Assembly: GCA_016858145.1 (NCBI GenBank)
Contig: JAEHOE010000083.1
Location: 1-64,000, forward strand
Length of the DNA: 64,000 nt
Source of the DNA: Edaphochlamys debaryana
Taxonomy: Eukaryota; Chlorophyta; Chlorophyceae; Chlamydomonadales
Reading direction: 5' to 3'
The notes under the pieces are model-generated. The model worked only from the letters and a program-made list of their open reading frames with translations. It had not been told where the DNA came from and made no database searches. The position numbers were made by a program, and so were the translations under genes. Each line of letters begins with the position of its first letter. The stretch's first letter is position 1. This document shows positions 17,147-20,100 of this stretch, one piece after another.

Positions 17147-20100
17147 ATGTCGGCCTCACAGCTTGCTCGTGGCAGCGCCCATGCTCAGGGCGCTGCTCGG
17201 CCGACAGCCACGCTACGCCCCTGCCGCGGGCCCGCACCCTTTCGCTCGTCGGTTGTGCGACCGATCGTAGCCAGCGCCGCGCCGGCCGCCCAGGATGCGC
17301 CCGCTCCCAAGCAGCAGAAGCAACAGAAGCAGCAGAAGCAGCAGCAGAAGCAGGCAAGGCCGTGGAGGAGCAAGATTGCCCGCGGGTGTCGAGCCTTTGC
17401 TCGCGGGACGGCCGAGGGGGACTGAGTTGGGGGTCGCGGGGGTCGCCATGGATGGCCCCAGGCTGACCTTACCCCAGCACAGCTCTGCTAACACCCAGAC
17501 TCTCCTCTCACGAACATCCAACCTCGACCTCTCCCCTCTTTCAGGGCGGTGGCGGTGGCGGCAAGGCCGCAGAGGCTGCCGTGACCCCTCGCAGGTAGGG
17601 GGGGGGGCGGGTGAACATGGCAGCGCAAGGAGACCTGGCCCCGCAAGTCAGGAGGGAGGTTGCTGAAGGGTCATGCAAGTAATGCGAGCGCACTGCAGCA
17701 ACGCAGCAACCCTGCATCTCTCTTGCGTCCTTACTGACTCCCTTGACTCCGTCCTTCTCCTCCCGCCCACAGCGAGGATTTCTCCAAGTGGTATCTGGAC
17801 GTGGTGGCCAAGGCCGAGCTGGCGGACTACGGCCCCGTACGAGGTACGGCACCGCTGTACGGCACCGTTGTACGGCCCGTTGAGTGCAATGCCCCTCATC
17901 CCAGTCACGGGAGGGCTCTGCGTGACAAGCCTGGACCCGTCTATTCACTTCACACGGGGTCCCGCACCGCCCGACCGCCTCGACCTGTGCTTCCGCTGGC
18001 TCCCCTGGCCAACCCCCGCTCACCCCTCAACATCCCCTCCTCAGGCACGATGGTGATCCGGCCGTACGGCTACTCAATCTGGGAGAGCATCCAGGCACGT
18101 GGGGGCGTGGGGCGTGGGGGCAGGGCAAGAGGCTGGCGAGGCCGTAGCGGCGCGGGGACCAACGGCGGGCCACCAAGCGTACGGGGGCCAGTCCCTCCCT
18201 CCGCCTCCTGTACCGGTACCTCTCGCCCTACCGCTTCTTGATGGCCCTCCCCTCTTGATCGCCCTCCCCTCCTCCGTTCCCTCTACCTCCCCACCCCCAG
18301 AGCTACCTGGACGCCCGCTTCAAGGAGCTGGGGGTGCAGAACGCCTACTTCCCGCAGGTGGGAAGGGGCAGGACATTGGACTCGGCTTCGAAACCTGGGA
18401 TACCATTGAGAAAGGGGAAAGCAAGGGGAGGGCAGAGTTCGGAGGGCAAGGCATGCGTAGGTTTACGCAAGTGGGAGCTGGGGAGCGCCAGCTTGGGGTC
18501 ATGCCGCTGATGAGACAACAAACTTACAGGATCAACCACCTGACCCCTCGGGGAGTGGTGACACCAAGTTTCTGAGGCACCCTGGCCCGCAAGCAACCGG
18601 CGTCGCTGTTGGGATTGCACACACCAAGCTTGTGGTTAGCGCGCTTGGCCTATGATGAGACAACAAACTTACAGGATCAACCACCTGAACCTTCGGGGCA
18701 TGTTGACAACCAAGTTTCTGAGGCCCGCTTACGCCAATACAGCCACAGCCAGGATTGCATTTTAGCCGGGATAAATTGGCGGACAGCAGTCGGTCCCCAG
18801 CGTGCACCTAAACACTGCCTGAGGGTCCTGGGCGGGGTAAGCAAACGCATGAGGCCCCTGATGATACTTCTAACTTCAGGATCAACCACCTGAACCTTCG
18901 GGGCATGTTGATGACCAAGTTTCTGAGGCCCACACAAACCCACCCTCGCACGGGCGCTTCACCGTTTGAGCACTCGGCAAGGCTCGCTTGGGCCCTGCTG
19001 CGTGCATCCGCAGAGCTCTCCGCCTCTGGGGCCTTTCGAATTTGCACCCCGGTCGGCGCCCGGCCCCAGACTCGGACAGCTCGCGCTGTGCCATGGAGGC
19101 CTCGGCACACTCCATGCCGCTGACGAGACAACCAACTTACAGGATCAACCACCTGACCCCTCGGGGAGTGGCGACAACCAAGTTTCCGAGGCAAGGGGCC
19201 CCGTGACGTTTACACTTCGGGTTTGCAGCCCAGCCGGGGCTAAGTGGCGGGTAGCAATCGCGTGCAAGCACGCACCTAAACACTGACTCTGTGGGTCATG
19301 AGCGGGGTCGGCAAACTCATGAGGCCGCTGATGATACTTTCAACTTCAGGATCAACCACCTGAACCTTCGGGGCATGTTGATAATCAAGTTTCTGAGGTC
19401 TAGCGAAGTGCACACCACACCGCATCACCAGCTGGAACGCTCTGCGCCTCGGGCTTATATGTGCTTAGCGGACTACTGTCCCCTGCCCCGACATGCCCCT
19501 GCGCCGCTGATGAGACAACCAACTTACAGGATCAACCACCTGACCCCTCGGGGGATGGTGACAACCAAGTTTCTGAGGCACCCATCCAACCAGCCAGCAC
19601 GGGCAAAATGCATTGCCCACCACGGCAGTGGCGCCACGTCATATGGCAGGGAGCCAGTCGGGAACCCGACGCATGCACAGACGGCCGCTGATGATACTTC
19701 TAACTTCAGGATCAACCACCTGAACCTTCGGGGCATGTTGACAATCGAGTTCCTGAGGCCTTTCCCACCCCCACTCCCACCGCCTCCGCCTACCCGGCCA
19801 CTTCCTCCATTGCCTCCTCGACCCCACTGCCCCTATCTCTCCATCGTTCCGCCTGCTCACCTCACCTCTCCGGGCCCCTCGCCTTCCCCTCCTCCGCCCC
19901 CCAGCTCATCCCCTACTCATTCATCACCAAGGAGGCGGAGCACGTGGAGGGCTTTGCCCCCGAGCTGGCGCTAGTCACCAAGGGTGGGTGGGCGGGCAGT
20001 GGGGAAGCGGGAGATCTGCGAGAGGGGCTCCATGGCTGGTCTCCTCCGCATGGGCGAGGTTGCAGAGGGCATGGCACATGGCATGGGTCGCACAGGGGTT

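Follow-up and report, generated by a model that had tools for sequence, protein, structure and literature searches.

Clusters of box C/D snoRNAs located in introns, with multiple isoforms, are known from C. reinhardtii (Chen et al. 2008, Genetics, as represented by its title and by the summaries of citing papers), and the same layout recurs in the locus described here. The kind of locus is known, and, by the PMC literature searched, the family member is probably new. Another closely related system is the U3 snoRNA. In yeast, U3 box A'/A forms an in vitro duplex with nucleotides 6-22 of 18S rRNA, and the binding of box A excludes the central pseudoknot until it is undone by Dhr1 (available portions of PMC4340053). 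Regarding guide RNAs in plants, predicted guide-target duplexes in Arabidopsis are mostly 10-14 bp long, according to the excerpted parts of PMC8053127.

The present locus lies in a green algal contig, of which a 64-kb stretch (the window) was analysed. Over the whole window, Rfam gives no match at the gathering threshold. A permissive scan of the intron (E up to 10) returns 17 weak matches, most of them to C/D families. The best of these, SNORD96 (22.1 bits against a gathering threshold of 43), snoR60 (20.8 against 40) and snoR77Y (20.5 against 52), share C/D boxes with the units in their alignments and score under gathering. U3 models match neither in the window at gathering nor among the 17 intron matches up to E 10. 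The likeness to U3 lies in ACAGGAUC of U3, which is complementary to the same 18S stretch as the guide of the units. U3, however, is about 220 nt long, with an architecture of its own and a match to its Rfam model, whereas the units are guide-type C/D RNAs of about 76 nt with a D' guide.

Seven C/D units in a prolyl-tRNA synthetase intron

The host intron of about 1.5 kb begins with GT at 18358, ends with AG at 19904 and lies in phase 0 between ...NAYFPQ and LIPYSF... of the encoded protein. The flanking exons, once joined, match TIGR00408 (E 7.8e-21, 74.5 bits, a 62-aa piece), which bears out the assignment of the host to prolyl-tRNA synthetase (ProRS) in the first-pass annotation. Pfam returned nothing for the ProRS pieces or for those of the PUS1-like host described below, and these were named via PDB sequences and NCBIfam. 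The seven intronic C/D units with a common guide before D', which the same annotation had reported, are confirmed in sense orientation to the gene (Table 1).

Table 1. Positions of the host intron, the C/D units, the related clusters and the U3 genes; coordinates without a contig name are those of the window.
Feature	Position	Strand	Basis
Host intron, prolyl-tRNA synthetase gene	18358..19904	+	sequence; TIGR00408 match of joined exons
ProRS cluster, 7 copies	18501-19762	+	exact guide + D'
C/D unit 1, A type, flanking stem letters included	18501..18581	+	sequence, family covariance model, C/D descriptor
Unit 1 parts	box C 18508-18513; guide 18527-18539; D' 18540-18543; C' 18556-18561; D 18572-18575	+
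C/D unit 2, A type	18646..18727; guide 18672-18684	+	sequence, family covariance model, C/D descriptor
C/D unit 3, B type	18852..18932; guide 18877-18889	+	sequence, family covariance model, C/D descriptor
C/D unit 4, A type, degenerate boxes	19114..19195; guide 19140-19152, intact	+	sequence, family covariance model; missed by C/D descriptor
C/D unit 5, B type	19322..19402; guide 19347-19359	+	sequence, family covariance model, C/D descriptor
C/D unit 6, A type	19501..19582; guide 19527-19539	+	sequence, family covariance model, C/D descriptor
C/D unit 7, B type	19682..19762; guide 19707-19719	+	sequence, family covariance model, C/D descriptor
VTC-like gene cluster, 6 copies	G000:C83:158824-159673	minus	exact guide + D'
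PUS1-like gene cluster, 3 copies	G000:C55:645285-645685	minus	exact guide + D'
U3 genes, four within about 5 kb	G000:C19:533829-538938		Rfam U3 search
U3 gene, one	G000:C142:177033-177254		Rfam U3 search

As cut, the units measure 81-82 nt each with flanking letters included; from box C to box D they span 68-69 nt in all 16 copies known from the genome, or about 76 nt with the stem. Each ProRS unit runs from the stem letters GCC through box C, a linker of 12-13 nt ending in AACTT(A), the guide CAGGATCAACCAC and D' (CTGA) to a CC-tetraloop-GG hairpin, followed by C', AAGTT, box D (CTGA) and the stem letters GGC. Exceptions are GAGTT for AAGTT in one of the seven, CCGA as box D in unit 4 and GGT as the stem in unit 5. 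The loop of the D'-C' hairpin is UUCG or CUCG, with CUUG in one copy outside the ProRS intron. CAGGATCAACCA stands directly before D' in all seven units and occurs exactly seven times in the window, always within this intron, and allowing one mismatch adds none; 100 dinucleotide shuffles with one mismatch allowed give a mean of 0.21 occurrences and a maximum of 1.

A C/D descriptor combining C, D', C', D and the terminal stem, drawn up after the units had been seen, finds six of the seven units and one other match on the plus strand of the window, with none on the minus strand. Applied to 200 first-order Markov copies of the intron, it yields 0.015 matches on average and at most 1. The further match, at 50842-50929, is the sole other one in the 64 kb and is probably due to chance. 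These counts agree with the earlier description of six units as close to consensus, the exception being unit 4 (W4), in which T-to-C changes affect boxes C (TGACGA), C' (TGGCGA) and D (CCGA) and the guide is unaltered. Unit 4 is probably a decaying copy, or else one that is tolerated among many.

The spacers have features of their own. A stretch between units 2 and 3 (18752-18820) is repeated at 71% between units 4 and 5 (19220-19288). A possible hairpin, CCAAGC...GCTTGG, was noticed by eye in the short spacers between A-type units, both at 18582-18645 and in the VTC-like cluster (L009, minus strand 5118-4763); it is perhaps a processing signal.

Across the 16 copies, boxes C, D', C' and D and the short terminal stem are all present, as first annotated for the ProRS intron. 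Box C is UGAUGA in 15 copies and UGACGA in one, and box D is CUGA in 15 and CCGA in one, both exceptions being unit 4. D' is CTGA in 16 of 16; it belongs to the motif used for collecting the copies and is also present in all places found with whole units. C' is recognisable yet variable (TGTTGA, TGGTGA, TGTGGA, TGGCGA). The purine of the textbook RUGAUGA consensus is departed from in 14 of the 16 copies, which have C at that position. The terminal stem has 3-4 pairs, with 94.6% of cells paired; among the 14 distinct sequences its outer pair is G-C in seven, U-A in three, G-U in one and unpaired in three. Covariation is thin: one outer pair is altered on both sides (3 cells), a count reached by 397 of 500 shuffles, and the covariation score is reached by 1 of 500.

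Folding of the single strand gives no clear advantage over shuffled sequences in the four of 16 units folded (z -0.43, -1.03, -1.02 and 0.22). The RNAalifold consensus pairs the guide letters CAGG to CCUG in the D' region of every one of the 16 units, so that part of the guide is hidden, and in two of the four folded units the guide pairs with the C' region. As a separate observation, the C' region (columns 57-63 of the aligned units) bears a partial resemblance to the 18S target in some units, for example TGTTGAT compared with TGGTTGAT. The guide might be self-masked by the C' region.

Copies in three genes and constraint on the guide

Seven copies describe the ProRS intron correctly, and the family as a whole is larger than the first-pass annotation proposed. 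The exact guide plus D' occurs in at least 16 copies in the alga's own genome (141.9 Mb, 502 contigs), within introns of three genes, and a backward-pattern control gives 0. Each of the three clusters lies in the sense orientation of its host gene. The VTC-like host shows DUF202 on one side of the intron (Pfam, E 4.7e-15) and VTC on the other (E 0.0042, under the Pfam cut-off), and the joined exon pieces of the PUS1-like host match PUS1 structures (PDB sequences, best 1.2e-13). The ProRS and VTC-like introns have a common stretch of 267 nt at 89.5% identity. Between the ProRS and PUS1-like introns (E <= 1e-4, same strand), the matches listed are single units of 77-106 nt with a flank of at most about 25 nt. 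Judged by this difference in the shared sequence, the duplication linking the ProRS and VTC-like clusters is the more recent one.

Several other places were discarded. Two places with one mismatch, on contigs C78 and C172, lack a TGAYGA box within the 217 nt examined, and 46 exact matches of the guide motif in viral contigs have no TGAYGA box within 30 nt upstream; both sets are attributed to chance. A pattern from box C to D' occurs in 40 stretches of prokaryote genomes and seven of viral contigs, from which nothing is drawn here; of these 47, 45 came up again in a rough check with no shuffle control, and three of the 45 have a loose C'-plus-D downstream. The family covariance model, run against the window together with L009 and L010 (83 kb, E <= 10), returns just the 16 training units.

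The 16 copies were first collected by the guide and D' motif, and searches not tied to the guide were added for this reason. Whole-unit DNA searches with one A-type and one B-type query, both containing the guide, each return the same 16 places and none further at E <= 10, counts that are lower bounds. With up to 3 mismatches allowed, a pattern of the 3' half that contains no letter of the guide returns 12 places, each of which belongs to the 16. Copies without the guide were found neither by the whole-unit nor by the 3'-half search of the genome. Guide and D' do not vary across the 16 aligned rows and form the longest invariant run in the units.

Four A-B repeat segments, comprising eight of the 16 units, permit six pairwise comparisons. 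The guide is identical in 26 of 26 letters in each pair, the boxes are 0.90-1.00 identical, the remaining snoRNA letters 0.82-0.90 and the spacers 0.45-0.63; the lower spacer values are judged, with no control, to be near the level of aligned random DNA. These comparisons indicate that the guide is under selection in a multi-copy C/D snoRNA family. The initial statement that everything else between the boxes drifts and the guide is selected holds in its second part and fails in its first: no copy departs from AACTT upstream of the guide or from CC..GG in the D'-C' hairpin, and 14 of 16 copies keep AAGTT before D (GAGTT in the other two). AACTT could pair with AAGTT in all 14 distinct sequences, with four of the five pairs never varying; this pairing may reflect a structural stem, or constraint may have produced it incidentally.

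It is almost certain, judging by the DNA, that the units form a real C/D snoRNA family. The contrary explanation, that duplication is spreading a local repeat or a relict snoRNA array with no function, is very improbable. Tandem and segmental duplication are evident, as in the 267 nt common to the ProRS and VTC-like introns, and unit 4 has decayed boxes. However, boxes C and D are consensus in 15 of 16 copies, the guide is invariant where spacers are 45-63% identical, and ProRS and PUS1-like introns share the units in otherwise unalignable intron sequence.

The 18S rRNA 5' end and its overlap with U3

The numbering of 18S rRNA used here includes a preceding U, which we take from plant 18S. The alga's own 18S gene was sought in its assembly and not found, and the target sequence is that of C. 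reinhardtii, whose 5' end ACCUGGUUGAUCCUGCCAG is a printed forward qPCR primer (available text of PMC7419008). Guide positions 2-13 pair with 18S nucleotides 5-16 (UGGUUGAUCCUG) in 12 consecutive, gapless pairs at -20.5 kcal/mol, in agreement with the perfect 12-nt complement to the 18S start first annotated. Guide position 5 stands opposite U8. According to the D'+5 rule, the methylated residue is the one facing guide position 5.

In the portion of PMC11542601 available, the table of plant 18S Nm sites, including those from tomato and tobacco cryo-EM maps, starts at Am28; a methylated U8 would therefore not be common to those plants. No snoRNA for 18S U8 was found in the subset of PMC literature searched, where the Um8 matches checked belonged to longer numbers (Um814 and Um893, for example). 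The element before box D could be a second guide for the same 18S end, but its pairing there is weak (-3.3 to -8.2 kcal/mol across the 16 units), and 1.65% of 2000 shuffles of the 11-mer of one unit reach the same strength. Because this element drifts, a second guide is not claimed.

U3 was found at five or more places in the genome by an Rfam U3 search, and the two rescanned are Plant_U3 (RF01847) at 122-124 bits and begin with ACGACUUUACUCGAACAGGAUCUGUUC; a U3 box A pattern had no match, where the Rfam search did find U3. The U3 of this alga carries ACAGGATC, of which eight letters are common to the A-type guide region and seven to the B-type; the common string is ACAGGAUC with A-type units and CAGGAUC with B-type units. 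Through ACAGGAUC, U3 can pair with an 18S segment that the guide overlaps. Placing the target near U3 contacts, as was done at first, was correct and understated the relationship. Since the guide and U3 share this stretch, both cannot pair with nucleotides 10-16 of one 18S molecule, and an order or a competition between the two RNAs is implied. A simple calculation gives -20.5 kcal/mol for the guide-18S duplex versus -14.6 for U3-18S. Copy numbers, all lower bounds, are 16 units versus five U3 matches and two U14 matches below the family cut-off.

Possible roles: methylation, chaperoning and other targets

The main reading, to which we assign a probability of roughly 0.6, is that methylation of 18S U8 is the main task of the family. 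From the features of the DNA we infer that a multi-copy box C/D snoRNA family would be expressed, processed from introns of three protein-coding genes and assembled into RNPs, in which the 12-nt element upstream of D' would pair with 18S nucleotides 5-16. By the D'+5 rule, fibrillarin would most likely be directed to 2'-O-methylate U8. Because the alga's U3 can use part of the same stretch, the action of the snoRNP would have to precede U3 binding or follow U3 release, and the many gene copies may help it in competition with U3. Points that weigh against this reading are the C in place of the purine in 14 of 16 copies, the variable C', the degenerate boxes of unit 4, the Rfam scores under gathering, the unremarkable folds with part of the guide paired, the plant Nm table that starts at Am28 and the use of the C. 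reinhardtii sequence as target.

The leading rival, possible but to be held tentatively, is a role as a chaperone or competitor of U3: an antisense C/D snoRNA that does not mainly methylate and holds 18S nucleotides 5-16 open or blocked during assembly of the SSU processome. U3 uses this segment first, and the central pseudoknot uses it later. The overlap of the guide with the U3 site (nucleotides 6-22 in the yeast duplex of the available part of PMC4340053), the eight or seven letters common to the alga's U3 and the guide region, the stronger guide duplex, the freezing of all 12 guide letters and the abundance of copies relative to U3 and sub-threshold U14 matches all favour such a role, with the limit that the copy numbers compared are lower bounds. 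On the other hand, D' next to the guide is perfect consensus, a feature that a pure chaperone could do without, and no extra 18S-pairing element conserved as well as the guide was found. An extended form of this idea, which is rather doubtful, sees in the 16 genes a dedicated C/D snoRNP that competes or alternates with U3 for the 18S 5' end. By occupying this end, the snoRNP would set the time at which pre-rRNA passes from its U3-bound state to the central pseudoknot, whether or not it also methylates U8; it would be a second snoRNA on the U3/pseudoknot segment. That the real partner is another rRNA site (through the D guide), an snRNA or an mRNA, with the 18S match incidental, is unlikely. 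Conservation is also fair in the element before D (AACCAAGTTT), but this element shows changes from A to G and from T to C in two of 16 copies and more drift upstream, whereas guide and D' are the longest invariant run and the 12-nt perfect rRNA complement stands in the correct register, for which chance is of the order of 1 in 1000 by our own estimate.

If the methylation reading alone holds, the family would be one more guide RNA with an unusual site. The 5' end of 18S is a region left unscored by at least one sequencing-based methylation map, whose RiboMeth-seq leaves out 20 nt at both RNA ends except for manual inspection (excerpted parts of PMC8053127). If the family is expressed, a nucleotide in this region, which U3 contacts before the central pseudoknot forms, is predicted to be modified or chaperoned.
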